Shown piece after piece: positions 18,538-41,011 of a stretch of 64,000 bases of DNA. A program made the position numbers and the translations under genes. The notes below the pieces were generated by a model, which saw only the letters and a list, made by a program, of their open reading frames with translations, was not told the DNA's origin and searched no databases. Source of the DNA: Myxococcales bacterium (lineage in GTDB: Bacteria > Myxococcota_A > Polyangia > Polyangiales > Polyangiaceae); contig JACPVJ010000117.1 of assembly GCA_016191785.1 (NCBI GenBank), positions 62,001 to 126,000 on the forward strand, in the 5' to 3' direction. Each line of letters starts with the position of its first letter. The stretch's first letter is position 1.

Positions 18538-20433
18538 ATGTTTCGAAAGCGCCTTGTCGCGACCTGCATCGTGGCCACCGCCGCACTGGGAATCGTCAGC
18601 ACCAGCAGTGATGCCGTTGCGCAGGAAGTGATCGATCTCGACGAGGAGGCCGCGAAGGCTCCCAAGAAGCCGGCGGCGAAGCCCGCGGCGAAACCCGTAG
18701 CCAAGGGCGACGCGAAGGCCGATCCGAAGAAGGGCGACGCGAAGGCCGACCCGAAGAAGGGCGACGCGAAGGGCGACCCGAAGAAGGGCGACGCGAAGGC
18801 CGACCCGAAGAAGGGCGACGCGAAGAAGGGCGACGGCAAGGGCGGCGTCGACATCGACCTCGACGAAGGGCAAGAGGGCAAAGAGCAGGGCCCGGTCGTC
18901 GCGGGGCAGATGACCGAAGAGGCCGCGGCCGCGAAGAAGCTCTTCGACCGCGAGCGCTGGAACGAGGCGGCGCAGGCACTGTTCCGGGTGGTCAACGGCG
19001 AGACCAGCGACGACCCCGGCAACAAGCAGCTCGCGCAGTACTACCTCGCCATCGCGCTCTATCGCTTGAAGTTCTACCAGGCGAGCTACGCGCTCTTCAG
19101 CCAGATCGCCGACAACAAGAACCACCTGAAGTTCAAAGAGACCCTGCTCTGGCTCGCCAAGCTGGCGACCCAGTTGCCCGAGCCGGCGGACATCATCGAG
19201 CGCGTCGGCAAGTACAGCGACGATCAGGTCGCGCGCTTCGACAACGAGCAACAGCGCGACTTGTTCTGGCAGCTCAACTACATGCTCGGCCGCTACAAGT
19301 ACCGAAATCGCCAGTACGAAGAGGCGATTCGCTTGTTCCAGAAGGTGGACAAGAAGAGCGAGTACTACGTGAAGAGCCAGTTCTTCACCGGCATCAGCTA
19401 CGTGCAGCTCCGCAAGTCCGTGCCCGCGGTGCAGTCGTTCCAGCGCATCGAGAAGGTCATCGACGAGGGCGCCACGGGCGTCGAAGACGAAGACCGTCTG
19501 CGCGACCTGGCCTACCTGTCGATGGCCCGCACCTACTACTCGGCGTCGATCAAGCTCGACCCCGAGAGCAACACCCCGCAGGTGGACGAGAAGAAGCTCA
19601 GCGCCGCGGTGAAGTACTGGAACCAGATCGAGCCGGCGAGCGAGTACTGGCTCGACGCGCTGTTCGAGCAGTCGTGGGCGTACTTCATGGCCGGCGACTA
19701 CCCCCACGCGCTCGGAAACATCCACACCATCCAGTCGCCGTACTTCCCCAACTCGTTTTACCCCGAGGCGGAGGTGCTCAAGGCCGTCATCTACTTCGCG
19801 AACTGCAACTACGAGGGCGCGACCATCGTGGTCGCGCGCTTCAACAAGAAGTACGTGCCGATTCGCGACGAGCTCGAGAAGGTGCTCAAGCGCTTCAAGG
19901 GCGAGAACCAGGAAGAGCCGTTCTTCAAGTTCCTGAAGGAAGTGCGCGAGGGCAAGGCCAACCTCGACTCGAAGATCAAGCCGATCGTCGAGAACGCCCT
20001 CTCCGATCGTCAGCTGATCCGCAACCTGGAGTACGTGCGCGTCCTGGACGACGAGATGGACCGCTTCCGGAAGTCGCCGCCAGCTTTCCGCGGCTCGGCC
20101 GTCGGAAAGCAGGTCGAAGACTCACTGAAGATCGCCCGCGACCTGGCGATTCGCCAGGCGGGCGAGCTCGCGATGCTCCGCTACCAGCGGAACGTCGACG
20201 AGCTGAACGAGCATCTGCGCAACGGTGAGAAGATCTTGATCGACATCACCGCGGCCCAGCGCAACCTGCTCGACGAGAAGATCAGCAAGGGCCAGGTCAG
20301 CAAGGCCGAAGCAAAAATCTATGGCGTCGTCAAACCGGACGAGGAGCACGTTCTGTGGCCCTTCGACGGTGAGTATTGGCGCGACGAGCTCGGCTTCTAC
20401 CGTCAGGTGGTCGAGTCGGCATGTGGGAGGTAA
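18538..20433 (+). CDS. gltC: Periplasmic TPR-type protein, GltC-like
   Basis: 631 residues. Signal peptide MFRKRLVATCIVATAALGIV with a signal peptidase I-like site at AVAQ. Residues about 35-105 are a Lys/Ala/Pro/Asp low-complexity linker with tandem KGDAKADPK repeats. The remainder is helical with TPR-like pairs, e.g. EAAAAKKLFDRERWNEAAQA, KQLAQYYLAIALYRLKFYQA, QLNYMLGRYKYRNRQYEEAI and KSQFFTGISYVQLRKSVPAV. Length, export and position directly before GltD- and GltE-like genes match GltC of the M. xanthus gliding complex, a periplasmic TPR protein of similar size. The next gene starts 5 bases after the stop, so they are co-transcribed. Homology is judged by eye and context, not by alignment. 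Confidence 0.65.
   Translation: MFRKRLVATCIVATAALGIVSTSSDAVAQEVIDLDEEAAKAPKKPAAKPAAKPVAKGDAKADPKKGDAKADPKKGDAKGDPKKGDAKADPKKGDAKKGDGKGGVDIDLDEGQEGKEQGPVVAGQMTEEAAAAKKLFDRERWNEAAQALFRVVNGETSDDPGNKQLAQYYLAIALYRLKFYQASYALFSQIADNKNHLKFKETLLWLAKLATQLPEPADIIERVGKYSDDQVARFDNEQQRDLFWQLNYMLGRYKYRNRQYEEAIRLFQKVDKKSEYYVKSQFFTGISYVQLRKSVPAVQSFQRIEKVIDEGATGVEDEDRLRDLAYLSMARTYYSASIKLDPESNTPQVDEKKLSAAVKYWNQIEPASEYWLDALFEQSWAYFMAGDYPHALGNIHTIQSPYFPNSFYPEAEVLKAVIYFANCNYEGATIVVARFNKKYVPIRDELEKVLKRFKGENQEEPFFKFLKEVREGKANLDSKIKPIVENALSDRQLIRNLEYVRVLDDEMDRFRKSPPAFRGSAVGKQVEDSLKIARDLAIRQAGELAMLRYQRNVDELNEHLRNGEKILIDITAAQRNLLDEKISKGQVSKAEAKIYGVVKPDEEHVLWPFDGEYWRDELGFYRQVVESACGR
18703..18825 (+). repeat. 27-base tandem repeat inside gltC-like gene
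   Basis: Four in-frame copies of a 27-base unit encoding KGDAKADPK (third copy KGDAKGDPK) at 18703-18729, 18730-18756, 18757-18783 and 18784-18810, plus a partial fifth copy to 18825. High nucleotide identity between copies suggests recent expansion. Confidence 0.9.
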
Positions 20434-20438
20434 CGAAG

Positions 20439-23400: not shown

Positions 23401-24170
23401 GCGCGGTGGTCAAGCTCTGGGCGGAGCCGTCCAAGGCCGTGGCCGAGATCGAGAAGGGCGAAGGCGACAAGCAGCGCCGCCTCGGCCGTGCGCTCGAAGC
23501 CGTGGGCGAGTCGCTCTTCTACTTCGCCGAGCAGAAGAAGGCGAAGGTCGACGCAGTGAAGTTCCCCGCCTTCCAGGGCCCCGCGACCAAGGACGAGGTG
23601 CTCAAGCACATCAACGTCAAGGTCAAGGACTGGATCGGCAAGAAGAAGCCGCTGATCGACGAGGCGACCAAGGAATACAAGAAGATCGTCGATCTGCAGC
23701 CGGTGCCGCCGCCGCGCTGGGTGATCGCGGCCGGCTCGCAGGTCGGCAACATGTGGGGCACCTTCGTGGACGAGTTCCGCGCGGCCCCCATCCCCGACTC
23801 GATCAAGAAGGACTACGAGCTCCGCACCGCGTACTACGGCGCTCTCGACGACGCCTCCGAGCCGCAGAAGAAGGTGGCCCGCGGCGCCTTCGAGACCTGC
23901 CTCGGTTACTCGGTCAAGCACCAGTACTTCGACGAGTTCAGCCGTGAGTGCGAGAAGTGGCTCGCGAAGACCTACAAGACCGAATACCACCTGATCGACG
24001 AGTTCCGCGGGGCACCGACCCGCGTGAACAGCGTGTTGAACGAGCAGGCGTTCCCGCTGCGCATCGGCGGCGAGCCGTTGGTCACGGTGGCTCCGCCGCC
24101 CGAGCCGCCGGCCCCGAAGAAGGCCGCGGAAGAGCCCAAGAAGGATGAGAAGAAGGGCGGGAAGAAGTGA
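20439..24170 (+). CDS. gltD: Large periplasmic TPR protein, GltD/AgmU-like
   Basis: 1,243 residues, close to AgmU/GltD of M. xanthus (about 1,200), a periplasmic TPR protein of the gliding machinery. It starts with a signal peptide MKSLKALSVLSALLGALIAC. The Cys could be a lipobox (LIAC) or the cleavage may be at ATSAAADD. Repeated TPR-like helices run through the protein: LDEVLYYLAYEHEQAGDLAN, NKVYGFARYKLGYVHWNKGE, YTDAMNEFKKVIEYGDQYAA, TLDMLNELGLAYLDTGKYKE, ADLLYFQQRWEECGPAFDSV, KATYEIGGNYQAIAVYDRAA. The C-terminus is a Pro/Glu/Lys tail. GGGAGG precedes ATG 20439; the stop overlaps the next gene's upstream codons. Together with the flanking GltC- and GltE-like genes this strongly supports a glt locus. 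Confidence 0.75.
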   Translation: MKSLKALSVLSALLGALIACPATSAAADDLSSSCVGAEAKKHLSECPGGPSKFQVGGKRPAAFKSAPPPRERKDASNKKPTNPTEAMAAGQRDTRKNRLEARSRALLITEIQGLERLYKTTPKKSADRPQLIRRMAEGYVELESAALRDKTKGDIAAQDLKKKNPSGAAKARSDAAAAKKIVEAARKSAIKYYTLMKTAYPNYSKLDEVLYYLAYEHEQAGDLANARKVYFELIEKAPKSPYIPNAYLAFGELFFQDAQGDPSKWDLAAAAYKEVIKYPAPENKVYGFARYKLGYVHWNKGEYTDAMNEFKKVIEYGDQYAALPNATQLAKSARRDLIPVYAASGQPDRAFNFFKPLSGDKGGEQAKTLDMLNELGLAYLDTGKYKEGIALYRDLMSRDKGPKSCHYQTQITVATQAMKASDKDGIKKELETQLAMRNSFAKEGHPADKKLECANRTAELLAESAMAWHLEAVGSGGVRGTGDKKTMDLAAYLYKKVAENFNRDEFNKFEFPRIVKSDWPSLYKIKYAMADLLYFQQRWEECGPAFDSVVAEDPKGESAAEAAYASVLCYQKMYDAMYKGQADRKGKGLGPSGADAKDREAKKGEWEKFKPKEFTSLQKGMIQAFNRYVCYITPAKGDKTAEDQYVEVKFARARTYYEAQHWEEAALAFRDVALNHSSHDSGIYAANLYLETLNVLGGRAEPPRPTCFDDMGKDVPSFLKLYCEGKKYDDNKDNCELLTRIQFDIQRLRAQKTVELADSQLEKNNTKEAVDNYKKGADMYLEMWRGYCEGPMSKGEKPKQCEKASEIVYNMARAYQAGRLLAKSIQSRLILLDPKYGMEKSDLAQKATYEIGGNYQAIAVYDRAADFFERYVEQTCGKLKKCGEDADKALSDAAVLRLGLGQDDKAIDDADKFNRYFGTKKPEQVAQLGFAIAAHYGEKKDWGNVAKRLGGAMRQIDAKATLDVRVQAHALMGRALKESKKNAANEYGAVVKLWAEPSKAVAEIEKGEGDKQRRLGRALEAVGESLFYFAEQKKAKVDAVKFPAFQGPATKDEVLKHINVKVKDWIGKKKPLIDEATKEYKKIVDLQPVPPPRWVIAAGSQVGNMWGTFVDEFRAAPIPDSIKKDYELRTAYYGALDDASEPQKKVARGAFETCLGYSVKHQYFDEFSRECEKWLAKTYKTEYHLIDEFRGAPTRVNSVLNEQAFPLRIGGEPLVTVAPPPEPPAPKKAAEEPKKDEKKGGKK

Positions 24171-24187
24171 TGAGCGCCAGGGAGAAC

Positions 24188-25657
24188 ATGAAGATGCGCA
24201 TCACCATGGTGGCCGCGGCGGCTCTGATGCTGGGCGCGGTGGGTTGTGGCGGCGGCGCCGGCAGCGGCAAGGGCGCGCTCTCGCCGGGCGACGACAGCGG
24301 CAAGAAGAGCCTGGGGAAGACGGCGGTGTCCAAAGAGGCTGCCGCCGGCTTCGACCGGGCGCTCGACGCCTTCGCCGAGCGCGACAAGAAGGGCGACTGG
24401 GCGGAGTCGAGCTGTTCGGCGGTCGCCGATCAGTTCATCGCCGCCAGCAAGGCGCAGCAGTCGGCGGCCTGGAAGCCGCTGCCCCAGGCGCTGTACAACG
24501 CCGGCCTCGCGTACCAGCGCTGTGACAAGGACTCCGAGGCGCGCGCCCAGTTCCAGGCGGCGGCCAGCGCCGACGCGGGCTTCCACCGCGCGAAGGCCCA
24601 GCTGGCCTTGTACGACTTCGAGAAGAGCAAGAACCTCGAAGGCACCATCAGCACGCTCGATCAGATCATCCGCGACGCGAAGTTCCAGAACGTCGAGGCG
24701 CTGGTCAGCCTCGCGGCGCTCCAGCTCGAGCGCAACGGCGAGTCGTCGGATCAAGACGGCAAGAACGACATGGAGCGCGCGAAGAAGAACCTGCAGCGCG
24801 CGCTGGCCATCGACGACTCGTACATGGCGGCCTTCAACCAGCTCGCGATCTTCTACCTCGAGCAGGCCAAGGCCAAGGCCGACGCCGAGGCCGCCAAGGC
24901 AGGGCGCAAGCGCCGCGGCCTGGTGGCCGCCAGCAGCAAGGCGAAGGACGTCAACTCGCAGCAGCTGGACCTCGCGGCGCTCGTCGCCTCGCAGGGCGTG
25001 CGCAAGAACCCGAACTACGCGCCGCTCCACAACACCGCCGGCTTGATCCAGGTCGAGCTCAGGAACTTCAACGGCGCCGTGAAGAGCTTCGCGGCGGCCC
25101 GGCGGCTCGACCCGAAGTTCTTCGAGGCGCACATGAACTACGCGGCGGTGAACCTGGGCTTCCGCGGCTTCGAAGAGGCCGAGAAGGCGTACCGCGACGC
25201 GATCAAGATCAAGCCCAAGGAGTACGAGGCGCACCTCGGGCTCGCGCTGGCGATCCGCGGCCAGATCAAGCTGGGCGACAACTCGGCCGTGCAGAAGGCG
25301 CAAGCAGCGCTCGACGAGGCCAAGAAGATCGACGGCAGCCGGGCCGAAACCTACTACAACGAGGCCATCTTGACTCAGGAGTACCGCACCAAGGGCTCCG
25401 AGAAAGAGGCGGTCCCGATGTTCGAGAAGGCCGCTGCCACCTACAAGCAGTTCATCCAGAAGGCCGGCAGCGCGCCGGAGTTCGCCGACGCCGTGAAGCG
25501 CGCAAAAGAGCGCGCGCAGGACGCCGAGGACACGGTCAAGTTCATCAAGGAGGGCGAGGCGGCCAAGAACGCTCCGCCCCCGCCCCCGCCCCCGGCCACG
25601 CCGGACGCCAGCGGCGGCGGGGCCCCGCCGCCTCCGCCAGCTGGTGGCAAGAAGTGA
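24188..25657 (+). CDS. gltE: TPR lipoprotein, GltE/AglT-like
   Basis: 489 residues, near the length of AglT/GltE. Signal peptide MKMRITMVAAAALMLGAVGC with lipobox GC, Gly/Ser/Lys linker, then TPRs: PLPQALYNAGLAYQRCDKDS, EARAQFQAAASADAGFHRAK, YAPLHNTAGLIQVELRNFNG, AVKSFAAARRLDPKFFEAHM, NYAAVNLGFRGFEEAEKAYR, DAIKIKPKEYEAHLGLALAI. It ends in a Pro-rich tail (APPPPPPPATPDASGGGAPP). It directly follows the GltD-like gene, with stop TGA at 24168-24170. Starts at 24170 (ATG overlapping that stop), 24188 and 24194 are possible; AGGGAG at 24179-24184 and the signal peptide favour 24188 or 24194. Probably an outer-membrane-associated periplasmic subunit. Confidence 0.75.
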   Translation: MKMRITMVAAAALMLGAVGCGGGAGSGKGALSPGDDSGKKSLGKTAVSKEAAAGFDRALDAFAERDKKGDWAESSCSAVADQFIAASKAQQSAAWKPLPQALYNAGLAYQRCDKDSEARAQFQAAASADAGFHRAKAQLALYDFEKSKNLEGTISTLDQIIRDAKFQNVEALVSLAALQLERNGESSDQDGKNDMERAKKNLQRALAIDDSYMAAFNQLAIFYLEQAKAKADAEAAKAGRKRRGLVAASSKAKDVNSQQLDLAALVASQGVRKNPNYAPLHNTAGLIQVELRNFNGAVKSFAAARRLDPKFFEAHMNYAAVNLGFRGFEEAEKAYRDAIKIKPKEYEAHLGLALAIRGQIKLGDNSAVQKAQAALDEAKKIDGSRAETYYNEAILTQEYRTKGSEKEAVPMFEKAAATYKQFIQKAGSAPEFADAVKRAKERAQDAEDTVKFIKEGEAAKNAPPPPPPPATPDASGGGAPPPPPAGGKK

Positions 25658-26249: not shown

Positions 26250-28304
26250 ATGGCAAAGGCTGTACTCACGTTCGCGCTCTACCAAGGGGATGTACTGCAG
26301 CGTCGCGAGACCATCGCGCAGGACATCGTCAAGGTCGGGAAGGATCCGAAGAGCCATCTGCGGGTCGACGACGAGCTCGCTTCGCGGATGCACGCGGTGA
26401 TCGAGGTGGGAAGTCCGGAGGACGTCACCCTCATCGATCTGGGCAACGAGCCGGGGACCATGGTCAACGGGGCTCGCGTGAACAAGTGCAAGCTCCATGT
26501 CGGTGACCAGGTTCAGGTCGGCGGCACGAAGATCGTGCTCGAGCGCGCAGAGCCTGCGGGCGCCGAGATGGAGGCCGCGGCAGCCGTTCCGGCGCCGGCC
26601 ATGGCCGCTCCGCCCCCCGCCGGTCCGTTCGGCGGTGCGAATCCGTTCGGTGGTTCGAACCCCTTCGCTGCCGCAGCGGCGTCGAGCCCCTTCGCGGTCG
26701 GTGCTGCGAACCCGTTCGAGGTCGGCGCGGCGGCGCTCAACCCGTTTGCGGCGGGCGCGCAGCAGCAGGCGCGGGTCGAGGCGATGCGCGTTCCCGACGA
26801 TGCGCCGCCCGGGACGTACACCTACACCTTGATCAAGAGCGGCCCCGACGTGCCGGCGGAAGAGGTCGAGGTTCCGCACCTCCAGTCGGTCGAGGTGATG
26901 GTGATGTGGGGCACGAACGTGCTGCACGTTTCGCACCTGACGCCTCCGCGCACGTTCTACGTGGGTGAAGAGCAGAGCAAGAACTTCGGCTGCGACTTCT
27001 TCATCCCGGCCGAGAAGCTCGGGACGACGCGCATGCCGGTCGTCGTCGGTGATCGCGCGTCTCTCGCGGTCGTGATCCCGCCTGGCGCCAAGGGGCACAT
27101 CGAGATCCCGGGCCAGCCCCGCATGACGCTGGACGAGGCTCGCGCCAAGGCGCAGCCCAGTGCCGAGGTGAGCGGCGGACACCAGTTCCCGCTGCCGGGC
27201 GGTGCGCGCGCGCGGATCGAGCTCGATCAGTTCGTGTTCCAGGTCGCCGCGGTCAACGCCGGCAAGCCGATCAAGCACGGCGTGGGTGCGGGCGTGGACT
27301 GGACGGTGGCCGTGTACTTCGCGCTCTCGTTCCTGGCGCACGCGGGTCTGATCGCCGCGATGGCCTTCTTCGTGCCGCCGCTCGGGCTGACGGACGACGA
27401 AGGCATCGACAAGGACCAGCTCTATCTCATCCAGCAGTACCTGAAGAGCGCTGCCGAGCGCGAGATGGAGGAGAAGGAGACCGAGCAGGTCACCGAGGAC
27501 AAGGCCGACAACAAGGAAGGCGGCACTGGTACACGAGCCAAGGGTGAAGAAGGCTCGATGGGTAACCCGACCTCCAAGGCCACCAACAAGCGCTACGCGG
27601 TGCAGGGGCCGAAGGACAACCCCGATCCTCACATTGCGCGCCAGGCCGCGCTCCGTGAGGCTCAAGAGTTCGGCATGATCGGGCTTCTGAACACCGGCGC
27701 TGCCGGTGATCCGAACGCGCCGACCGCACCCTGGGGGCGTGACACGTCCCTCGGCCAGGACGACATGTCGGCCCGCGGCAACATGTGGGGCGACGAGATC
27801 GGCGACGCCTTCGGCGCGGGCGGCCTCGGCCTGTCGGGCATCGGCGAGGGCGGTGGCGGTCGCGGCGAGGGCATCGGCCTCGGCTCGATCGGCACGCTGG
27901 GTCACGGCGCCGGCACTGGAACCGGGCAGGGCTTCGGCTCCGGTCACGGCCGCCTGGGCGGGTCCCACGCAACTCGTGCGCCGAAGGTGCGCATGGGTGC
28001 CACGACCGTCAGCGGCCGCCTGCCGCCCGAGGTCATCCAGCGCATCGTCCGCCAGAACTACGGCCGGTTCCGCATGTGCTACGAGCAGGGCCTTTCCCGT
28101 AACCCGAACCTCGAAGGGCGCGTGCAGGTCCGGTTCGTGATCGGGCGCGACGGGTCGGTGTCGAACGTGTCCAACGGTGGCTCGGACATCCCGGACAGCG
28201 GCGTGGTCGGGTGCGTGATCAGCGCTTACTACGGCCTCTCCTTCCCGCAGCCGGAGGGTGGCATCGTCACGGTGGTCTACCCCATCATGTTCAGCCCGGG
28301 CTGA
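26250..28304 (+). CDS. gltG: Inner-membrane FHA / AgmX-PglI tail protein, GltG-like
   Basis: 684 residues. The N-terminal cytoplasmic FHA domain (about 25-95) shows KSHLRVDDELASRMHAVIEV, NGARVNKCKLHVGDQVQVGG and the usual S/H pair. An Ala/Gly linker with repeated NPF motifs (about 125-170) follows. A second beta-rich domain then follows (about 190-340, EVEVPHLQSVEVMVMWGTNV). One TM helix is at about 351-373 (YFALSFLAHAGLIAAMAFF). The periplasmic part is acidic coiled, then Gly-rich (GGLGLSGIGEGGGGRGEGIG). The last 100 residues are the AgmX/PglI-type C-terminal domain (LPPEVIQRIVRQNYGRFRMC, YGLSFPQPEGGIVTVVYPIM), related to TonB tails. The same architecture is known for GltG/PglI, which links the cytoplasmic and periplasmic parts of the M. 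xanthus gliding complex. Confidence 0.8.
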   Translation: MAKAVLTFALYQGDVLQRRETIAQDIVKVGKDPKSHLRVDDELASRMHAVIEVGSPEDVTLIDLGNEPGTMVNGARVNKCKLHVGDQVQVGGTKIVLERAEPAGAEMEAAAAVPAPAMAAPPPAGPFGGANPFGGSNPFAAAAASSPFAVGAANPFEVGAAALNPFAAGAQQQARVEAMRVPDDAPPGTYTYTLIKSGPDVPAEEVEVPHLQSVEVMVMWGTNVLHVSHLTPPRTFYVGEEQSKNFGCDFFIPAEKLGTTRMPVVVGDRASLAVVIPPGAKGHIEIPGQPRMTLDEARAKAQPSAEVSGGHQFPLPGGARARIELDQFVFQVAAVNAGKPIKHGVGAGVDWTVAVYFALSFLAHAGLIAAMAFFVPPLGLTDDEGIDKDQLYLIQQYLKSAAEREMEEKETEQVTEDKADNKEGGTGTRAKGEEGSMGNPTSKATNKRYAVQGPKDNPDPHIARQAALREAQEFGMIGLLNTGAAGDPNAPTAPWGRDTSLGQDDMSARGNMWGDEIGDAFGAGGLGLSGIGEGGGGRGEGIGLGSIGTLGHGAGTGTGQGFGSGHGRLGGSHATRAPKVRMGATTVSGRLPPEVIQRIVRQNYGRFRMCYEQGLSRNPNLEGRVQVRFVIGRDGSVSNVSNGGSDIPDSGVVGCVISAYYGLSFPQPEGGIVTVVYPIMFSPG

Positions 28305-28656
28305 GGCTCGAGCCCGAACGGGCGAACCCGAGGCGCGCTTCCGAAAGGGGGCGCGCCTTTCGCTTTTGGGGGTGCCTCGATCTCCGACGCCAGTCGACGC
28401 GCGGGCGGGGCTCCAGGCCGCCCGGGACGGGTTGGCGGTGCCCGTCGGCGCGCGCCTGCCCGGGGAGGTCGGGCACCGAAAACTTGAAGGAATCTCGCTT
28501 AGATCCTGGCACGAACCGCCTTTACTTCGTTCCCCCCGTCTGCCTATGCTCGGTTCCGCCGCTTTTGCTGGCGGACATGCCTCAGGCGTCTTGGGGCAGG
28601 GGCTCGTCCCACTCGGGCGGGACCTGGGCTCGGGCTATCGACAGGGTGAGCTCACG
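28305..28656. other. 352-base gap after gltG-like gene
   Basis: Begins with an intrinsic terminator (28331-28367). The remaining 290 bases before the TPR lipoprotein hold no convincing gene. A longer in-frame N-terminal extension of the downstream gene exists but does not look like protein. A TGGCACG sequence occurs at 28509-28515, resembling half of a sigma-54 site, but its -12 part is absent. Confidence 0.6.
28331..28367 (+). terminator. Intrinsic terminator after gltG-like gene
   Basis: Stem AGGCGCGC (28331-28338) pairs with GCGCGCCT (28351-28358) across a 12-base loop, followed by TTCGCTTTT. It lies 27 bases after the gltG-like stop codon. Confidence 0.75.
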
Positions 28657-29577: not shown

Positions 29578-29743
29578 CCTTGCGCATTCCACGCCGGACC
29601 GAACGCCGAGAGGCTTGTTCCGTCGGGCTCACCAGGGCCGGGGCGACAGTGTTTGATTTCGATGTGTCGAAGAAGTGCAGCCGCGAGCGCGGGGCAACGC
29701 CCGTGACCTCGGCTGTACCAGCGCGTCATTTGTCCGAGGAAGC

Positions 29744-32700
29744 ATGGATCTAGAGCAGCGTCTGAACCACCTCGAGCGTCACCACGACTGGGCGGGCCTC
29801 GCCGAAGCGCTCGAGCAAGCCATCGCGGGCGCGCAGGACCCCGCCGTGAAAGCGGAGCTCCATCTCCGCCTCGGGCGCCTGCAGCAGTCGCAGTTCTTGC
29901 AGAGCGTGAAGGCGCTGAAGCACTTCCAGGACGCCTTCAAGCTGAACCCGGCGCTGGGTGAGGCGCTGGCGGATGCGCGGCGCATCTACTGGGAGCTGGG
30001 CAAGCTGAACATGGTTCAGAAGCTGCTCGAGCTGCAGATCAAGAACACGAACGAGGCGCAGGCCGCTTCGCTCTACCGCGAGCTCGGGGACGTCTTGTGT
30101 GACCTGGGCGACTACGAGCGCGCGGCCGACGCCTACGCGCGCGCCATGAGCGACGGCCAGAGCGGCGAGGTGGGGCAACTGCTCGACGACGTGATGGTCG
30201 GCACCGAAGACTGGCAAGAGCGCATCGGCGTCGTGCTGCGAGCCGCGCACGAGAGCGAGTCGGCTGAGGGCAAGGCAGAGGCCTTGCTGCGGGCGGCACG
30301 CATCGCGCGCCGCTACGCGCCCGACGAGGTCGAGGGCATTCTGGGTCGCGCGTATTCGTCCGACCCTGCCAGCGTGGTGGTGTCGGCGTTGTACGAAGGC
30401 CTATTGGTCGACGCCAGCCGCGGGGACTCGGTGACTGCGATGCAGCGCCAGGTGCTCGAGAGCGTCGCCGATCCGAAGGTCCGAGCCGATCTGGCGTTCC
30501 GCTTCGGGGCTCGCTGGGCGCTGCGTCACCAGAATTTCGAAGCCGCGGCGCCCTTGCTGGACGAGGCCTTGAGCCTCGACCCGGGGCACGAAGCCGCGTT
30601 CGCTTTCTATCGCGACGTCTACGGCACTCGCGACGGGCAGTGGGCGCAGGTGGCGGCCAAGGCCGAAGAGCTCGCCGGCCGGGCGGATGGCGCGCAAGAC
30701 CGCGCGTTTCTTCTGGCGCAGGCCGGGCTCGTGATCTGGCGCGAGGTCGGCGACCTGATCAAGGCGCGTAGCTGCTTCGAGCGGCTGGCCGCGGTCGATC
30801 CCGAGCATCCCGCGGTTTCGGCGTTCGAAGCGCAGATCGGCGAGAAGCTCGGCGGCGGCGCTCCTCTGCCCGCGGCGGCTGAGGTCAGCCCGGCGCCTCC
30901 GGAGGCCGAAGCGCCGGCCGCGAGCCCGGCGCCACCCCCGGCGGCACCGGCGGCGGCGCCCGCCCCCGCAGCGTCCGCGCCCGCGGGCGGCGACGAGGCG
31001 AAGATCGCCCAGCTTCGCGCGCAGCTCGAGGAGCAAGAGGCCGGCAAGAAGTTCCACGAGTACGTCAAGACGCTGGTCGCGCTCGGCGACGAGGTCACCG
31101 ACCCCGCCGAGCGCGTCGAGCTCTTCCTGAGGGCCGCGGACCTGTACGTGAACAAGTTCGCCAATCAGGCCGAGGCCGTGCGCACCTACGAGCGCGTGCT
31201 CGAGGTCGAGCCGGCGAACCCTGCTGCGATCGACTACCTGCGGCAGATGTACGAGAAGCGTCGCGACTGGGAGAAGCTGATCCAGCTCAAGACGAACGAA
31301 GCCAACCAGTACGAGGCCGGCCCCGTCCGCAGCGCCGCGTTCAAAGAGATCGCGCAGCTCGCCACCGAGCGCGTGAAGAAGCCCGAGGTGTGCATCGACC
31401 TCTGGGCCGTGGTCCTCGAGAACGACGCCGAGGACGCCGACGCCATCGAAGCCTTGGCCCAGCTCTACGAGCGGGCGCGCGACTACGACAAGCTCGCCGA
31501 CGTGCTCGAGAAGCAGGCGCAGATCACCTACGAGACCAGCGCGAAGATCAACGTCCTGAACAAGCTGGGTCAGGTCGTGGGCGATCGGCTCAAGGACGAC
31601 GTCCGGGCCGTCGAGGCGTATCGCCAGCTCCTCACCCTGCAGCCCGACGATCGCCGCGCTCAAGAGCAGCTCAAGAAGCGCTACGTCACCCTCGGGCGCT
31701 GGGACGACCTCGAGGTGTTCTACGCCGAGAGCGGCAAGTGGGACGAGTTCATCCGGGTTCTCGAGACCAACGAGACCAAGGCCGAGACCAACGAGCAGCG
31801 CATCGGCATGCTCCTCAAGATCGCCGAGCTCTGGATGACCCAGAAGGGGAAGCCCGATCGGTCGGCCAAGGCCTACGAGAAGGTGCTCAGCATCGAGCCG
31901 ACTCACCTGGCGGCGGCCGAGCGGCTGATCCCGGTCTACACCCAAGCGAACAACCCGAAGGGCCTGTCCGCTGCCATCGAGGTCAAGCTCGGTCACGTCG
32001 AGGACACCGACGAGCGCCTGGCTCTGTTGCGCGAGGTGGCGGCGCTCTACGAGACGCGAATCAACGACAAGGCCAAGGCCTTCGAGCGGTTCCTGTCTGC
32101 CTTCGAGCTCTCGCCGCACGACGAGCAGAGCCAGAGCGACGTCGAGCGCGCGGCCCACCAGACCGGGCGCTGGGACGAGGTGGTCGCGGCCTACCGCGCC
32201 GCCGAAGACCGCGCCGACGAGAGCGGGGACGGCGCCGCCGCGAACGTGCTCCGGCTCCGGCTCGGCCGGATCTTGGTCGACGAGGTCGGTCGCGTCGACG
32301 ACGCACTGACCGAATACCGCGCGGTGTACGAGAGCGAGCCCGAGAACGCCGTGGCGCTCGAGGCGCTCGAGAAGCTCTATCGCCAGACCGAGCGCTGGAA
32401 GGACCTCCTCGAGGTCTACGCCAAGAAGCGCGAGCTCGCCTACGACACCGAGTCGCGCAAGCCCATCCTCTACGAGATTGCCCGGCTCCACGAGACACAG
32501 CTCGGCGACGCGTCTTCGGCCATCTCGACCTACCAGGCCGTGCTCGAGGACGACCCGGCCGACGCCGTGGCGCTCGAGGCCCTCGACCGCCTCTATCGCG
32601 AGACCTCGGCGTGGGAGTCGTACGCCGACGTGCTTCGGCGGCGCATCGAGCTCGAAGCCACCGAGCAGCAGCTGGTCGACCTCAAGTTCCGACTGGCGCA

Positions 32701-35700
32701 GACGCTCCATCGGCACCTCGGTGACTCCGGCAGCGCGCTGACCAACTATCGCGAGATCCTGTTCATCAACCAGGATCACGAGGGCGCGCGCCTGGCCTTG
32801 GAAGAGATGATGGGCGAAGAGGAGCAGCGCGCGGAAGCGGCGGCGATCCTCGAGACCATCTACGAGGCGCGCGAAGACTGGGAGAAGCTGGTCGGCGCCC
32901 TTGAAATCCTGGCGGCGGCCGACGCCGACCCCGAGCGGCGCGTCGCGCTGCTGCGAAAGATCGCGTCGGTCGCGGCGAACCAGCTGCGGGCGCTCGACCG
33001 CGCAATTGACGCTCAGGCCCGGGCGCTGAAGCAAGACCCGGCGCTCTCCGACACCCGCTTCGAGCTCGAGCAGCTCGCCGAGCAGTCGGGCGCGTGGAAC
33101 GACGTGATCCGCATCTACCAGGACGTCGCCGCCGGCCTCGACGACGCCGCGCTCGCCCGCGACTACTGGATGCGTCTGGCGTCGATCCAAGAGCAGCTGC
33201 AGCTCGTGGCCGACGCGGCACAGAGCTACGACAAGGTGCTCGCCCTGGATCCGGGGGACGCCGAGGCGCTGGCCGCGATGGACGCGCTCTACCGCGGTAC
33301 CGGACACTGGGACGACCTGGTCACGGTGTTCCGTCGTCGCATCGAGCTCGCCCAGGACGGCGCCGAGCGCGAGGGGCTCTACGCGCAGATGGCGCAGGTC
33401 TACGAAGAGAAGCTCGGCCGGCCCTCGGAGGCCATCGCGGCCTACCGCGAGGTGCTCGCGCTCGACCCCGCGAGCGGCGTGGCGCTGGCGGCGCTCGACG
33501 GCCTCTTCACCCGTCAGAGCATGTGGCCCGAGCTGGCCGAGAACCTCGAGACGCAGCTCAGCTTGGCGGACGACGACGCGACCCAGCTGTCGCTCATGCT
33601 GCGCCTGGCGTCGCTGCGCGAGACGCGAATGAACGACGTCGAGGCCGCGATCGAGGGCTACCGCCAGGTGCTCGAGCGCGAGCCGACCAGTGAAGCCGCG
33701 ATCGCGGCGCTCGAGCGGTTGGGCCAGGCGGCGGAGCACGAGCTCTCGATCGCCGAGATCCTCGAACCGCTCTATCGCCAGCAGGGCGATTTCCAGAAGC
33801 TGATCGGCGTGCACGAGGTGCAGGTTCGTCGCGCCGAAGACGCGTCGCGCAAGGTCGAGCTGCTCCACCAGATCGCTTCTCTGCATGAAGACGCCGCCGG
33901 CGACCTGAACGCGGCCTTCGACACCATGGCCCGCGCCCTGGCGGCCGACCCCTCCCACGAAGAGACGCAGGGCGGCATCGATCGCGTGGCCCGCGCCACC
34001 GGGCGTTTCCAGGATCTGGCGCAGGTCTACGAGCGCCTCGCGCAAGAGCAGAGCGACCCCGAGCTCTCGAGCCAGCTCTACACCTTCGCCGCGCGGGTCT
34101 TCGAGAACGACGTCGGCAACGTGGATCGGGCCATCGAGCTCTACCGACAGGTCCTGAAGATCGACGCGATGAACCTGGCGGCAGCCGAGTCGTTGCAGAC
34201 GCTCTTCCAGTCCACCGAGCGCTATGCCGACATGGCGCTGATCCTCCAGCGCAAGGCCACCATCCTCGAGGACGCCGAGGACCAAAAGGCCGCCCTCTAT
34301 CAGGCAGCCGGCATCGAAGAAGAGGTGCTCGAGCGCAAAGAGGCCGCAATCAACGTCTACCTGAAGGTCCTGGAGATCGATCCCGAGGACCTGAAGAGCA
34401 TCGACGCACTGATCAACCTCTACCTGGGGCTCTCGCGCTGGGAAGAGCTGCTTGGCGTGTACGCCAAGAAGGTCGATCTGGTGATCGACACCGACGAAAA
34501 GAAGATGATCTTCTACCAGGTCGGTGCGGTCTACGAGCGCGAGCTCGCGGACGTGAGCCGCGCCATCGACACCTACCAGAAGGTGCTCGAGCTCGATCCC
34601 GACGACCTCACGGCGCTCGGCCGACTGGACGTGCTCTACCAGACGGCTCAGAACTGGCCCGAGCTGCTCAGCGTGCTGCAGCACGAGGCGGAGCTCACGC
34701 AGGACCCGGCGGAGGCCGTCAGCTTCCAGTATCGCATCGCGGAGCTGTTCGAGAGGCACCTGTCCGACGTCGAGCGCGCGGTCGAGCTCTACCGCGACAT
34801 CCTGGGGATCCAGTCGGATCACCAACCCACGCTGGCGGCACTCGAAGGCATCAAGGACGGCGACCGAGCGGCGCTGGCCGCGGCCGGCGTGCTCGAGCCG
34901 GTGTACGACGCCTTGAGCGAGTGGCAGCGCCTGGTCAGCGTGCTCGAAGTCCAGGTGCGCCACGCCGAGGACGCCTTCGGCAAGGTCGAGCTGCTCCATC
35001 GCATCGCTCGCCTCTACGAAGAGAGCCTGGCCGATCCGCACAGCGCGTTTTCGACCTATGCCCGTGCCGTGCAGGCGGACTCGCAGAACGAAGAGTCGCT
35101 CGCCTCGCTCGAACGCCTGGCCAACCTGATCGAGAAGTGGCCGGCCGTGGCCGAGCTGTACGACGCCGAGCTGGAAAAGCTGGGCGAGCAGCCGGAGCGC
35201 GTGGTCGAGCTGGGGCTGCGCGTGGCGCAGGTCTACGAAGTGCAGCTCGAGAGCCTGGACAACGCCGTCGCCCGCTATCGCCGGGTGCTCGAGGCCGACC
35301 CCGAGAACCAGAGCGCGGTGCGCGCCCTCGACCGCCTGTTCACCCAGGCCGAGCGTTGGGTCGAGCTGACCGAGGTGCTCAAGCGTGAGGCCGACATCGG
35401 GCAGAGCCCCGACGAGATCCTCGAGTTCAAGTACCGCCTGGGGCAGGTCTACCAGCTTCGTCTCGGCGATCTGGACCGAGCCATCGAGGCCTATCGCGAA
35501 GTGATCAACGCCGCGCCCGAGAACGGCGACACGCTGGCCGCGCTCGAGGGGCTGTTCGAGTCCGGCGTGAAGCAGCTCGAGGTCGCGGAGATCCTCGAGC
35601 CGCTCTACCAGCAGGCGGGCGAGTGGGAGAAGCTGATCCGCGTGCGCGAGGCCGAGCTCGCCCACATCACCGACGCCGACCAGCGGATCGCCATGCACCA

Positions 35701-38700
35701 CCGCATCGCGGAGGACGCGGAAGAGCGCCTGATGGATCCTGTCCGTGCCTTCGAGGTGCACGTGCGCGCCCTGAAGGAGCGGCCGCTCGAAGAGCGAACC
35801 GGTGAAGAGGTCGAGCGCCTGGCCGCGATGATCGACGGCGGCTGGGAGCAGCTGGCGAACGCGTACGCGGACGTGCTCGGTATCGAGGGCAACGACGCAG
35901 GGACGCAGGCCGCCGTCGGCAAGCGATTGGCGCGAGTGTTCGAGGAAGAGCTCGCGGACGTCGCCAAGGCCGAAGAGACCTACCGCTACGTGCTGACGGT
36001 GGTCCCGTCGGAGGTCGATGCGCTCGCCAACCTCGATCGCATCTACACCTTGCTTGAGCAGTGGCCCGAGCTGGCAGGCGTGCTCGAGCAGCGGGCCGAG
36101 GCCGCCGAAGAGCCGGCCGACAAGATCGAGCTCAACACCCGCCTGGGACAGGTCTACGAAGAGCAGCTGGGCCAGGTCGACGACGCCGTCCGGGCGTTCC
36201 GCCGCATCTTCGATCAGCTCGAGCCTGCCAATGAAGACGCGATTGCGGCCCTGGGGCGCATCTACGAACAGACCGAGCGTTGGGTCGAGCTCGACGGTGT
36301 CTACCGTCGCGAGCTCGAGAACGCCTCGGGCGACGTGCAAGAGGCGGAGATCCGCGCCAAGCTCGCGCGCCTCGCCTCGGACCGCCTGGGCAAGGTCGAA
36401 GAGGCCATCGAGGGCTGGAAGCGAGTGCTCGATCTTCGGGGTGAGGACCCAGAGGCCCTGTGGGCCCTCGCGGGCCTCTACGAGCAGCAGGGGAAGTGGG
36501 CCGAGCTCACCGACATGCTGGAGCGGCACTTCGACATCGCCGAGAGCGACGAAGATCGCGTGAACATCCTGACGCGCCGCGCGCGTCTTTTCTCCGAGCA
36601 GCTGGGGCGAGACGACGAGGCGCTCGAGACCTGGCAGCGCGTGCTCGACATCGACTTCTCGAACGTGGCCGCGCTCCGCGCGATCGCCCAGATCTGGCGC
36701 GTCCGTCAGGATCCGCGCGAGCTGGTCGCCGCGCTCCACGCGAGCATCGACCGCGCGGCGGCGCTGCTCGACCCGGCCGAGCTGGTCGCCACCTATCGCG
36801 AGCTGGGCAAGACCTACGGCCAGGTGCTGGAGCAGCCGTTCGAGTCGGCCGAGGCCTGGCGCAACTTGCTCGAGGTCGATCCCCACGACTTCGAGGCGAT
36901 GGCCGAGCTCGAGCGGGTGTACCGCGCCGAAGAGCGCTGGCCCGAGGTGGTGGACGTGAAGCTGCGTCGCGCCGAGGCGCTCGAGGAGCCGGCCGAGAAG
37001 ATCCGTGAGCTCCTGGAGGTCACGCAGATCTGGAAGAAGGAAGTCAACGACTACGACAAGGCGACGCCGGCGTTCGAGCGAGTGCTCGGGATCGACGCCA
37101 CGCACGACGAGGCCTTCGAGTCACTCGAGCGTCTGCACGGCGCGGCAGAGCGCTGGGAGCAGCTGGTCGAGCTCTACCTCAACCGCCTCGAGACGCGGGA
37201 GGAAGTGTCGGAGAAGAACGACCTCTTGCGACGCATCGCCCATGTCTTCGAAGAGAAGCTGGACGACAAGAACCAGGCCTTCGACGCGATGGTCAACGCC
37301 TTCGCCGAGGACTACGGCGACGACGAGAGCGTTCGCTACCTCGAGAAGATGGCAGCCGGCACGGGTCGCTGGGGTGAGCTGATCAACACCGCCAACGCCT
37401 GGCTCAAAGAAGAGGAAGACGCGCGCAAGAAGATCGACCTCTGCCTGCGCCTGGGCAAGTGGTACGGCGAGGACCTCGGTCACCCCGAGTACGCGCAGCC
37501 CTACTACGCGCAGGTCATGCAGCTCGACCCGAACAACGTTCAGGTCTTGCGGCAGATGGCGGCGATCTATCGCCTGGGTGCCCAGTGGCAGAAGATGGGT
37601 GAGACCCTCACTCGAGCGCTCGACGTAGCGGTCGCGAACGAGGACAAGAAGGTGATCTTGTGCGACCTCGGCGACCTGCTCGAGAAGCACATGAACCAGG
37701 CCGACCAGGGCATCACGTTCTACCGGCGTGCCCTCGACGTCGACCCGCTATTCTTGCCGGCTCTCGAGGCGCTCGAGCGCATCTACGACGAGCGGGGCAA
37801 TCACGCGGACCTGGTGCAGATCCTCACCAGCAAGGTGAAGGCGCTCACCGACCCCGATCAGATCGCGCAACACAAGATGCGCCTCGGCGGCCTGTACGAA
37901 ACGGCGCTCGGTGACTTCGAACGTGCCGGCAAGGTGTACCGCGAGGTGCTCGAGCTGGACGGCAGCAGCATCTTTGCGCTGCGGGGGCTCGAGCGCATCT
38001 ACCAGGCGCTGCAAGACTGGCCCGACATGGTCGACGTGCTCGAGCGCCAGCTCGACGTGGTCGAGACCGAGCGCGAGCGAGTGGACGTGCTGCTCAAGCT
38101 GGCGCAGATCCAGGAAGAGCAGTTCCTCAAGGCCGACATCGCGGCCCAGCGGCTGGAGCAAGCGGTCGAGATCGACGCCAGCTGCGAGCCCGCCTACGTC
38201 AGCCTCGAGCGCTGCTACCGGCGACTGAAGCAGTGGCTGGACCTGATCAACAGCTACGAGCGCCACATCAGCGAGGCCGCGGATCAGAGCACGAAGATCG
38301 AGCTCTATGCGGCGATGGCCGAGGTGTACGCGCAAGAGGTCGGGGACGTCGACCGCGCGATCGACGCCTATCAGAACATCGTCGACCTCGACGACACCAA
38401 CATCGCGGCGCTCGACGCGCTGTCCAAGCTCTACGAGAAGCAGGGTGACGCGGCACGGGCCATCGAGTCGATGACGCGCGTGGCAGATCTGACCTCGGAC
38501 GGCACTCAGCGCGTGGAGATGTACTTCCGCATCGGGAAGGCGCTCGACGAGAAGCTGGGCGACCGCGTGCAGGCCCAAGAGCGCTTCGAGATGGCGCTCG
38601 ACCTCGACCCGACCCACCTGCCCACCTTGGCGGCGCTCCGCATCATCGCCGTCGACGAGCAGGACTGGGATCGCGCGGCACGGTACCTCGAGCAGGAGCA

Positions 38701-41011
38701 GCTCAACACGCAAGCTCCCCGGGCGCGAGCGAAGCTCTTGGTCGAGCTCGGCAAGCTGCGCGACGAGATGCTGAGCGAGCACGAGCAGGCGGTCTTGGCC
38801 TACGAGCTCGCCATGCAGTGCGACCAGGACTGCGAGGAAGCCGCGCTACCGCTGGTGCAGGAGTACAGCAACGTCGGACGGTGGCAGGAAGCCGAGCCGC
38901 TGGCGGAGATGCTGGTCAAGAAGAGCAAGAACCGCGAGCGCCACGAGCAGCACATGCTCCAGAAGCTGCTCGGTCGTGTGCACGCTGCGCTCGGCAACCA
39001 CGACCGCGCGCTGCGCGCCTATCAGACCGCCAACCAGCTCGATCTCACCGACCAAGAGGCGATTCGGGGGATCGCCGACGCCGGCTACGAGCTCAAGGAC
39101 TGGCCGACGGCCCTCACCAACTATCAGAAGGTGCTGACGGCGCTCGGCGAGGACGACATCGAGGCGCGCACCGACGTCTACTATCGGTTGGGCTGCATCA
39201 AGCGGGAGCAGAACCAGGCGAAGCAGGCGATCAACAACTTCGAGAAGGCGCTGGCGCTGAACGGGGAGCACCGGCCGACCCTCGAGGCGTTGATCGAGGT
39301 CTACGGGCAGGCCAACGACTGGAAGCAGGTCGCGGCCTACAAGCGGCAGATCCTCGACGGCGTGTACGACGGCGAAGAGCGGTACAACCTTCTCAACGAG
39401 ATCGGCGACCTCTGGGCCGAGAAGGAGAAGAACGCGGTCAAGGCCATCGAGGCCCTGGAAGAGGCGCAAGAGCTCAAGCCGCAGGATCACGTCCTCTTGC
39501 ACAAGTTGCTGCAGCTCTACGGCGAGGCCTCCGAGTGGCAGAAGATGATCGACACGCTGCACGCCATCGCCTCGATCGAGGAGAAGCCCGAGCTGAAGAG
39601 CCGGTACTTCTACACGATGGCTCAGATCTACCGCGACAAGCTCAACGACCTCGACCGGTCGGTCGAGCTGTTCAACGAGTGCCTCGACCTGAACCCCGGG
39701 TACCTGCAGGCGTTCGAGCGCATCAACAAGGTCCTGACGCAGGAGAAGAACTGGAAGCAGCTCGAGCGGTCGTACCGCAAGATGCTCCATCGCATCGCCG
39801 GCAAGGGAAACGCGGACCTGGAGCACACCCTCTGGCACCAGCTCGGTCTGATCTATCGCGACCGGCTGCAGCGCTCGGAAGAGTCGATCGAGGCCTTCAA
39901 GATGGCCGTGACGATCAAGCCCGAAGACGTGATGCAGCACCAGATCCTGGCTGAGCTCTACGAGGTCAGCGAGCGCTTCGACGAGGCCATCACCTCGCAG
40001 CGGAAGATCCTCGAGGCGGATCCGCTGAAGGTGGACCCCTATCGCGCGCTCTACCGCCTGTACCTGCAGAAGCACTCGTACGACGAGGCTTGGTGCATCG
40101 CCGCCGCGATGGCCTTCATGAAGAAGATCGACGGCGAAGAGAAGCAGTTCTTCGAGGACTACAAGCCCCAGGGCATGCTCGCGGTGAAGGGCCGCCTGAG
40201 CAACGAGCACTGGGTGAAGTTCCTGTTCCACCCGGACGAGAACATCTACGTCTCCAAGGTGATGGAGATGATCGCCCCGGCGGCCCTCCAGGCGAAGATC
40301 GCCCAGCTTCAGTCCCAGGGAAAGCTGCCGACCCTCGACAAGCGCTTCAAGCAAGATCCGGCATCCTCGACCGTGACGTTCGCCAAGACCTTCGGCTGGG
40401 CGGCTCAGGTGCTGGGGATCCCGTCGCCGGATCTCTACGTCCGGAACGACGTGCCCGGGTCGATCGTGGCGGTGCCCGCGGTGCCGCCGGCGTCGCTGGC
40501 GGGTCAGACCGTGCTCACCGGTTTCCAGCCGCAAGAGCTGACCTTCATCTGCGGCAAGCACCTCGCCTACTATCGCGGCGAACATTACATCCGCACGCTC
40601 TTCCCGACGCAGGCCGAGCTCACCATCATGCTCTTTGCGGGCGTGATGATCGCGGCGCCCAACACGCCGATGCCGCCGGACCTGCAGCCGCAGATCCGGT
40701 CCACGGCGCAAGAGCTGGCGAAGTACATGCAGCCGGTGCAACTCGAGGGCTTGCGCATCGTGGTGAAGAAGTTCATCGACGAGGGCGCGAAGGCCAACAT
40801 CAAGCGCTGGAACCAGGCGGTGGAGCAGACGGCATGTCGCGCGGGCCTGCTGGTGTGCGCGGATCTCGAGATCGCCAAGAAGATCATCGGCGCCGAGCCG
40901 AGCTTGCCGGGTGACCTCACCCCGCAAGAGAAGATCAAGGACCTGCTCCTCTTCAGCGTGAGCGAGAGCTACGCGCAGCTCCGCAAGGCGCTGGGCATCG
41001 CGGTCGGCTGA
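29744..41011 (+). CDS. gltI: Giant TPR protein, GltI/AgmK-like, with degenerate M48-like end
   Basis: About 3,755 residues, near the roughly 3,800 of AgmK/GltI, the giant TPR protein of the M. xanthus gliding complex. No signal peptide: it begins MDLEQRLNHLERHHDWAGLA and is probably cytoplasmic. Residues about 374-416 are a Pro/Ala-rich linker. Dozens of diverged TPR-like units, many with W.EL and Y..VL..DP features, run through most of the rest (AVRTYERVLEVEPANPAAID, AIDTYQKVLELDPDDLTALG, AIDAYQNIVDLDDTNIAALD). The last 250 residues contain LGIPSPDLYV and ELTFICGKHLAYYRGEHY, which align with M48-type metalloproteases but lack HExxH. CGAGGAAGC precedes ATG 29744. It is probably a scaffold binding many partners. 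Confidence 0.82.
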   Translation: MDLEQRLNHLERHHDWAGLAEALEQAIAGAQDPAVKAELHLRLGRLQQSQFLQSVKALKHFQDAFKLNPALGEALADARRIYWELGKLNMVQKLLELQIKNTNEAQAASLYRELGDVLCDLGDYERAADAYARAMSDGQSGEVGQLLDDVMVGTEDWQERIGVVLRAAHESESAEGKAEALLRAARIARRYAPDEVEGILGRAYSSDPASVVVSALYEGLLVDASRGDSVTAMQRQVLESVADPKVRADLAFRFGARWALRHQNFEAAAPLLDEALSLDPGHEAAFAFYRDVYGTRDGQWAQVAAKAEELAGRADGAQDRAFLLAQAGLVIWREVGDLIKARSCFERLAAVDPEHPAVSAFEAQIGEKLGGGAPLPAAAEVSPAPPEAEAPAASPAPPPAAPAAAPAPAASAPAGGDEAKIAQLRAQLEEQEAGKKFHEYVKTLVALGDEVTDPAERVELFLRAADLYVNKFANQAEAVRTYERVLEVEPANPAAIDYLRQMYEKRRDWEKLIQLKTNEANQYEAGPVRSAAFKEIAQLATERVKKPEVCIDLWAVVLENDAEDADAIEALAQLYERARDYDKLADVLEKQAQITYETSAKINVLNKLGQVVGDRLKDDVRAVEAYRQLLTLQPDDRRAQEQLKKRYVTLGRWDDLEVFYAESGKWDEFIRVLETNETKAETNEQRIGMLLKIAELWMTQKGKPDRSAKAYEKVLSIEPTHLAAAERLIPVYTQANNPKGLSAAIEVKLGHVEDTDERLALLREVAALYETRINDKAKAFERFLSAFELSPHDEQSQSDVERAAHQTGRWDEVVAAYRAAEDRADESGDGAAANVLRLRLGRILVDEVGRVDDALTEYRAVYESEPENAVALEALEKLYRQTERWKDLLEVYAKKRELAYDTESRKPILYEIARLHETQLGDASSAISTYQAVLEDDPADAVALEALDRLYRETSAWESYADVLRRRIELEATEQQLVDLKFRLAQTLHRHLGDSGSALTNYREILFINQDHEGARLALEEMMGEEEQRAEAAAILETIYEAREDWEKLVGALEILAAADADPERRVALLRKIASVAANQLRALDRAIDAQARALKQDPALSDTRFELEQLAEQSGAWNDVIRIYQDVAAGLDDAALARDYWMRLASIQEQLQLVADAAQSYDKVLALDPGDAEALAAMDALYRGTGHWDDLVTVFRRRIELAQDGAEREGLYAQMAQVYEEKLGRPSEAIAAYREVLALDPASGVALAALDGLFTRQSMWPELAENLETQLSLADDDATQLSLMLRLASLRETRMNDVEAAIEGYRQVLEREPTSEAAIAALERLGQAAEHELSIAEILEPLYRQQGDFQKLIGVHEVQVRRAEDASRKVELLHQIASLHEDAAGDLNAAFDTMARALAADPSHEETQGGIDRVARATGRFQDLAQVYERLAQEQSDPELSSQLYTFAARVFENDVGNVDRAIELYRQVLKIDAMNLAAAESLQTLFQSTERYADMALILQRKATILEDAEDQKAALYQAAGIEEEVLERKEAAINVYLKVLEIDPEDLKSIDALINLYLGLSRWEELLGVYAKKVDLVIDTDEKKMIFYQVGAVYERELADVSRAIDTYQKVLELDPDDLTALGRLDVLYQTAQNWPELLSVLQHEAELTQDPAEAVSFQYRIAELFERHLSDVERAVELYRDILGIQSDHQPTLAALEGIKDGDRAALAAAGVLEPVYDALSEWQRLVSVLEVQVRHAEDAFGKVELLHRIARLYEESLADPHSAFSTYARAVQADSQNEESLASLERLANLIEKWPAVAELYDAELEKLGEQPERVVELGLRVAQVYEVQLESLDNAVARYRRVLEADPENQSAVRALDRLFTQAERWVELTEVLKREADIGQSPDEILEFKYRLGQVYQLRLGDLDRAIEAYREVINAAPENGDTLAALEGLFESGVKQLEVAEILEPLYQQAGEWEKLIRVREAELAHITDADQRIAMHHRIAEDAEERLMDPVRAFEVHVRALKERPLEERTGEEVERLAAMIDGGWEQLANAYADVLGIEGNDAGTQAAVGKRLARVFEEELADVAKAEETYRYVLTVVPSEVDALANLDRIYTLLEQWPELAGVLEQRAEAAEEPADKIELNTRLGQVYEEQLGQVDDAVRAFRRIFDQLEPANEDAIAALGRIYEQTERWVELDGVYRRELENASGDVQEAEIRAKLARLASDRLGKVEEAIEGWKRVLDLRGEDPEALWALAGLYEQQGKWAELTDMLERHFDIAESDEDRVNILTRRARLFSEQLGRDDEALETWQRVLDIDFSNVAALRAIAQIWRVRQDPRELVAALHASIDRAAALLDPAELVATYRELGKTYGQVLEQPFESAEAWRNLLEVDPHDFEAMAELERVYRAEERWPEVVDVKLRRAEALEEPAEKIRELLEVTQIWKKEVNDYDKATPAFERVLGIDATHDEAFESLERLHGAAERWEQLVELYLNRLETREEVSEKNDLLRRIAHVFEEKLDDKNQAFDAMVNAFAEDYGDDESVRYLEKMAAGTGRWGELINTANAWLKEEEDARKKIDLCLRLGKWYGEDLGHPEYAQPYYAQVMQLDPNNVQVLRQMAAIYRLGAQWQKMGETLTRALDVAVANEDKKVILCDLGDLLEKHMNQADQGITFYRRALDVDPLFLPALEALERIYDERGNHADLVQILTSKVKALTDPDQIAQHKMRLGGLYETALGDFERAGKVYREVLELDGSSIFALRGLERIYQALQDWPDMVDVLERQLDVVETERERVDVLLKLAQIQEEQFLKADIAAQRLEQAVEIDASCEPAYVSLERCYRRLKQWLDLINSYERHISEAADQSTKIELYAAMAEVYAQEVGDVDRAIDAYQNIVDLDDTNIAALDALSKLYEKQGDAARAIESMTRVADLTSDGTQRVEMYFRIGKALDEKLGDRVQAQERFEMALDLDPTHLPTLAALRIIAVDEQDWDRAARYLEQEQLNTQAPRARAKLLVELGKLRDEMLSEHEQAVLAYELAMQCDQDCEEAALPLVQEYSNVGRWQEAEPLAEMLVKKSKNRERHEQHMLQKLLGRVHAALGNHDRALRAYQTANQLDLTDQEAIRGIADAGYELKDWPTALTNYQKVLTALGEDDIEARTDVYYRLGCIKREQNQAKQAINNFEKALALNGEHRPTLEALIEVYGQANDWKQVAAYKRQILDGVYDGEERYNLLNEIGDLWAEKEKNAVKAIEALEEAQELKPQDHVLLHKLLQLYGEASEWQKMIDTLHAIASIEEKPELKSRYFYTMAQIYRDKLNDLDRSVELFNECLDLNPGYLQAFERINKVLTQEKNWKQLERSYRKMLHRIAGKGNADLEHTLWHQLGLIYRDRLQRSEESIEAFKMAVTIKPEDVMQHQILAELYEVSERFDEAITSQRKILEADPLKVDPYRALYRLYLQKHSYDEAWCIAAAMAFMKKIDGEEKQFFEDYKPQGMLAVKGRLSNEHWVKFLFHPDENIYVSKVMEMIAPAALQAKIAQLQSQGKLPTLDKRFKQDPASSTVTFAKTFGWAAQVLGIPSPDLYVRNDVPGSIVAVPAVPPASLAGQTVLTGFQPQELTFICGKHLAYYRGEHYIRTLFPTQAELTIMLFAGVMIAAPNTPMPPDLQPQIRSTAQELAKYMQPVQLEGLRIVVKKFIDEGAKANIKRWNQAVEQTACRAGLLVCADLEIAKKIIGAEPSLPGDLTPQEKIKDLLLFSVSESYAQLRKALGIAVG

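Follow-up and report, generated by a model that had tools for sequence, protein, structure and literature searches.

A degenerate M48-derived domain at the C-terminal end of the giant TPR protein GltI/AgmK in Myxococcota

The window analyzed here, a stretch of 64,000 nucleotides from a Myxococcales genome (contig JACPVJ010000117.1), carries on its + strand a GltC-like gene (18538..20433), a GltE-like TPR gene (24167..25657), and a GltG-like gene with an FHA domain and an AgmX/PglI C-terminal domain (26250..28304), each scoring under the NCBIfam equivalog cut-off and all located upstream of a giant TPR gene. The latter occupies an open reading frame spanning 29675-41011 (+), open from a GTG at 29675 and with a likely start at the ATG at 29744, and encodes a protein of 3755 aa (29744..41011, +). 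Two additional TPR proteins are encoded nearby: one of 1264 aa (20376-24170, +) between the GltC-like and GltE-like genes, which is by position and size a candidate for GltD/AgmU, and one of about 439 aa (28258-29577, +) between the GltG-like gene and the giant gene, to which the table of the M. xanthus G1 cluster assigns no counterpart. A 2234-codon open frame runs antisense to the giant gene (30401-37105, -) and most likely results from high GC content and repeats.

Synteny identifies the giant protein as the giant TPR protein of the glt cluster, GltI/AgmK, on the basis of the GltC-, GltE-, and GltG-like genes upstream and of GltJ-like matches downstream in other genomes. Indeed, a GltJ-like match begins 145 bp past the C-terminal domain described below in one genome (G040) and lies near a copy of this domain in another (G047), the GltJ models giving no match over the NCBI cut-off in the 189 genomes sampled. 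In M. xanthus, the genes stand in the order gltI-gltJ, and GltI/AgmK (MXAN_4863) is a TPR protein of 4132 aa without signal peptide or transmembrane segment (PMC3169522); AgmK is termed transmembrane in one review (PMC9120999). As judged by hydropathy rather than by a dedicated predictor, neither a signal peptide nor a transmembrane segment is evident in the window's protein, whose top 19-residue hydropathy is 1.53 and whose N-terminus is devoid of a hydrophobic stretch, in agreement with the published table for GltI (PMC3169522). TPR-type repeats were the sole matches of note in a Pfam scan of the giant ORF, and we found no features of GltI/AgmK beyond TPRs in the literature.

The protein ends with a domain of 265 aa (40211..41005, +). 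A preliminary description of this DNA had placed a degenerate M48-like domain at the end of the protein from 40240 onward; its position at the protein end stands, and its onset moves slightly upstream, to about 40196-40211. The motifs then cited are present in the order claimed, namely LGIPSPDLYV (40412..40441, +), assigned to a helix end and the first strand of the core sheet, QTVLTGF (40505..40525, +), assigned to the third strand and the short helix preceding the former active-site helix, and ELTFICGKHLAYYRGEHY (40535..40588, +), which corresponds to this former active-site helix. Within the latter, KHLAY (40556..40570, +) stands where HExxH would be expected, and the replacement of the zinc motif described earlier is thus borne out. 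The second half of the signature, absent from that description, is EQTACRAGLL (40823..40852, +), located where the M48 third-ligand motif ExxADRxGL would stand. Further downstream, SVSESYAQLRKALGI (40955..40999, +) counts among the stretches with the highest conservation in the family, with a Ser and an Arg that are almost invariant.

An AlphaFold2 model of the domain, built with 66 sequences, is compact (pLDDT 94, pTM 0.91) and places, in model numbering, a helix at 61-73, strands at 79-82, 90-93, and 99-102, the KHxxY helix at 112-124, and the EQTACRAGL helix at 202-221. The predicted order, alpha-beta-beta-beta-alpha(KHxxY)...alpha(E), is the one expected of gluzincins and agrees with the M48-type fold proposed at the outset. 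Furthermore, a longer construct comprising the last TPRs and the domain was modeled with a pTM of 0.87 and no low-confidence linker, which suggests that the domain is probably packed against the final TPRs of GltI. Across 39 orthologues, mean identity to the window is 65% for the domain versus 64% for the neighboring TPRs.

While a Pfam scan of the last 270 residues gave no match (PF01435 being listed neither for the window domain nor among the families listed for members of the broad family alignment) and a PDB sequence search with the domain gave none either, an HMM of the family picks up HELGH-bearing M48 peptidases, with whole-genome E values down to 1.5e-7 per piece. These HELGH proteins are members of Pfam PF01435 over the cut-off and occur in genomes without a close copy of the domain. 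In the HMM alignment, 'ELEFIIGHELGHILHQH...EWMRKAELSCDRAGLLCCQD' of one of them (L247) is colinear with 'ELTFICGKHLAYYRGEH...KRWNQAVEQTACRAGLLVCAD', with KHLAY opposite HExxH and EQTACRAGL opposite the ExxADR third-ligand motif. The comparison of the family with 24 M48 domains by hhalign yielded a probability of 95%, or 92% at default settings, with reversed and 20 column-shuffled controls at no more than 0.3%; against classic M48 members alone it yielded 6%, which indicates that the link passes through one M48 subgroup. Given the agreement of the HMM matches and hhalign, the domain is almost certainly M48-derived, as the preliminary description had supposed from its core motifs.

The PF01435 subgroup in question (L247, L252, L256, L262, L078, L081, and L082) has a core colinear with that of the domain, and both have in common a [LI]-P-x-L-Y-V strand, an ELxF-xxG-x helix, and a W-x(4)-E-x(4)-R-A-G-L-L-x-C-x-D-x-x-A helix. 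Unlike this subgroup, the domain family has lost HExxH, shows in its aligned columns no counterpart of the M48 THP plug His, and has a longer stretch between the two halves (profile positions ~150-183 being unmatched), and none of its members reaches Pfam detection. A protein of this subgroup, the nearest to the dead domain, is encoded on the same contig about 48 kb past the window end: L078 (G000:C112:174347-174901) is an M48 peptidase in which GHECGH and EVTCDRAGALC are present.

The former zinc site was examined in 201 family domains of Myxococcota, 179 of which are distinct. HExxH, the retention of which in homologues had been named beforehand as refuting, was found in none of the 201. The first ligand, the first His of HExxH, is a Lys or an Arg in 184 domains (Lys 128, Arg 56), position 2 is commonly a His (136/201), and the second ligand at position 5 is free to vary. 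The Tyr of the KHxxY replacement put forward earlier, present in 57/201 only, is not conserved and was dropped as a conserved functional replacement. The third-ligand acid is kept in 187/201 (Glu 127, Asp 60) and the Arg that follows it in 196/201, and the Asp of the M48 ExxxD-type motif is mostly Ala, Cys, or Asn. Lys/Arg at ligand 1 and Glu/Asp at ligand 3 occur together in 158 of the 179 distinct domains, a strong association in raw counts that comprise few independent pairs. As read from the alignment, the conserved substitution is thus this Lys/Arg and Glu/Asp combination, and not KHxxY, and the pair may replace the metal as a putative buried salt bridge. Catalysis has very probably been lost and, because of the loss of the ligands, the domain would bind no zinc and have no proteolytic activity. 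The family alignment reveals no further group of residues that are strictly conserved and could serve as metal ligands.

This domain family is phylum-wide in Myxococcota. The domain is present in all 38 other near relatives, and 109 of the 189 sampled Myxococcota genomes have a profile match, an upper figure since some of the weakest matches are ordinary M48 peptidases. Most of the genomes with better scores have one copy at the end of a 3300-4700-codon ORF, and giant ORFs with this ending occur in many families of the phylum; the named scan located the domain in Polyangiaceae and unclassified Myxococcota, including Sorangium, Polyangium, Labilithrix, Minicystis, and Byssovorax. Other copies are C-terminal in proteins of about 500-2400 codons, most of which have recognizable TPRs. 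The window's own genome gives ten profile matches, with four further strong copies of the domain and several weaker ones, and Pfam TPRs are absent from two of the six own-genome paralogues scanned. One paralogue (L005, G000:C98:10105-10860) has an in-frame TAG within the domain, due perhaps to pseudogenization or to faulty assembly.

A single branch (SH-aLRT 99) separates the sampled pseudo copies from the M48s beside them in a rapidly built tree, some branches of which are long, and the row nearest to these copies is L248, in which AELAH takes the place of HExxH. This protein, together with L251 and L261, all from genomes of family f37, corresponds to open frames of 825-894 codons with AELAH at the site; the three adjoin the GltI-type family in the tree and are possible intermediates. 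Short M48-type proteins without HExxH were also observed in genomes of family f28, with QVMGA (L246), RLCGH (L249 and L250), or QQLGH (L253) at the site, and the three that were scanned (L246, L249, and L253) have Pfam M48 scores despite the lost motif. They apparently form a separate dead M48 set in the same phylum.

Taken as a whole, these data lead us to favor, as the probable reading, an M48 pseudopeptidase kept as a cap and docking module of GltI. Early in Myxococcota, a TPR protein would have acquired an ancestral M48 zinc peptidase domain at its end; the zinc ligands and the catalytic glutamate of this domain would then have disappeared, selection having presumably kept the domain since as a folded module. 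The domain would cap the last TPRs of GltI, and its surface would offer protein docking in the gliding complex, where it may bind a Glt/Agl partner; such a docking role is plausible. AgmK has been reported within a complex binding FrzCD (PMC3447774), and FrzCD is a possible partner. A more specific version, in which zinc was swapped for the Lys/Arg-Glu/Asp pair, the old substrate groove binds a gliding-machinery peptide (e.g. of GltG, GltJ, or a cytoplasmic regulator), and the end of GltI serves as a scaffold-to-motor or scaffold-to-regulator attachment, is advanced as a tentative suggestion. As for the binding instead of cleavage and the gliding scaffold proposed in the preliminary description, both are well-grounded inferences.

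The M48-derived domain might instead be an inert solenoid cap, without any ligand or partner and with the stabilization of the TPR array end as its only function. The TPR-domain junction predicted at high confidence, the presence of the same domain at the end of many other, mostly TPR-containing proteins of differing length, as for a generic cap, and a conservation that does not exceed the TPR level would all suit this explanation, which we nevertheless hold to be rather unlikely, as the family shows almost no variation in the C-terminal stretch and at several charged or polar positions, beyond what a plain cap needs. Some of this near-invariance may, however, come from M48 inheritance. Less probable still is that a remodeled active site confers an activity, or that the old groove accommodates another ligand (e.g. 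metal, nucleotide, or peptide): the conserved basic residue at the old ligand 1 and the conserved acid at the old ligand 3 could belong to such a site, but every HExxH residue has been substituted, position 5 is variable, and the alignment offers no other strictly conserved metal-ligand set.

Finally, the likeness to M48 could be convergent or due to chance, the domain being an unrelated helical fold. The lack of any Pfam or PDB sequence match and the weak hhalign link to classic M48 alone would be in line with this; yet the profile matches to intact M48s are colinear in both signature halves, the reversed and shuffled controls remain at 0.3% or below, and the predicted secondary-structure order also speaks against it, so that we regard a chance likeness as very improbable indeed.

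A pseudopeptidase cap and docking module at this place would be of interest for several reasons. GltI/AgmK is among the largest and least understood components of the myxobacterial gliding machine, and a C-terminal module of recognizable ancestry is small enough to be expressed as a target, can be removed by a short deletion, and has named conserved residues to mutate. The occurrence of the same module in many, mostly TPR-containing proteins implies that one binding assay could inform the whole family. Furthermore, M48 would join the peptidase families having dead relatives, with a natural series whose ends are HELGH and KHxxY and whose intermediate members have partly decayed sites.

Compared with M. 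xanthus GltI/AgmK, the window's protein is likewise a giant TPR protein of a glt cluster with a GltG-type gene upstream and, in genomes related to the window's, a GltJ-type gene downstream; the published annotation of the M. xanthus protein, compared here by description, gives TPRs only, and a C-terminal M48-like domain is unmentioned (PMC3169522). The association of an M48 domain and a TPR domain in one chain is also found in E. coli BepA, in which the M48 domain is tightly associated with, and cupped by, the TPR domain (PMC7950410). While BepA is an active periplasmic zinc peptidase whose M48 domain is N-terminal to the TPR domain (PMC7950410), in GltI the TPRs precede the M48-derived domain, which no longer has the zinc site. 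In this respect, the domain resembles the pseudo-metallopeptidases, in which the zinc ligands are lost and the fold is retained for binding or scaffolding (PMC11266112). M48 is unmentioned in that review, and, unlike the pseudo-metallopeptidases it covers, the GltI domain would represent a bacterial, phylum-wide M48 case.
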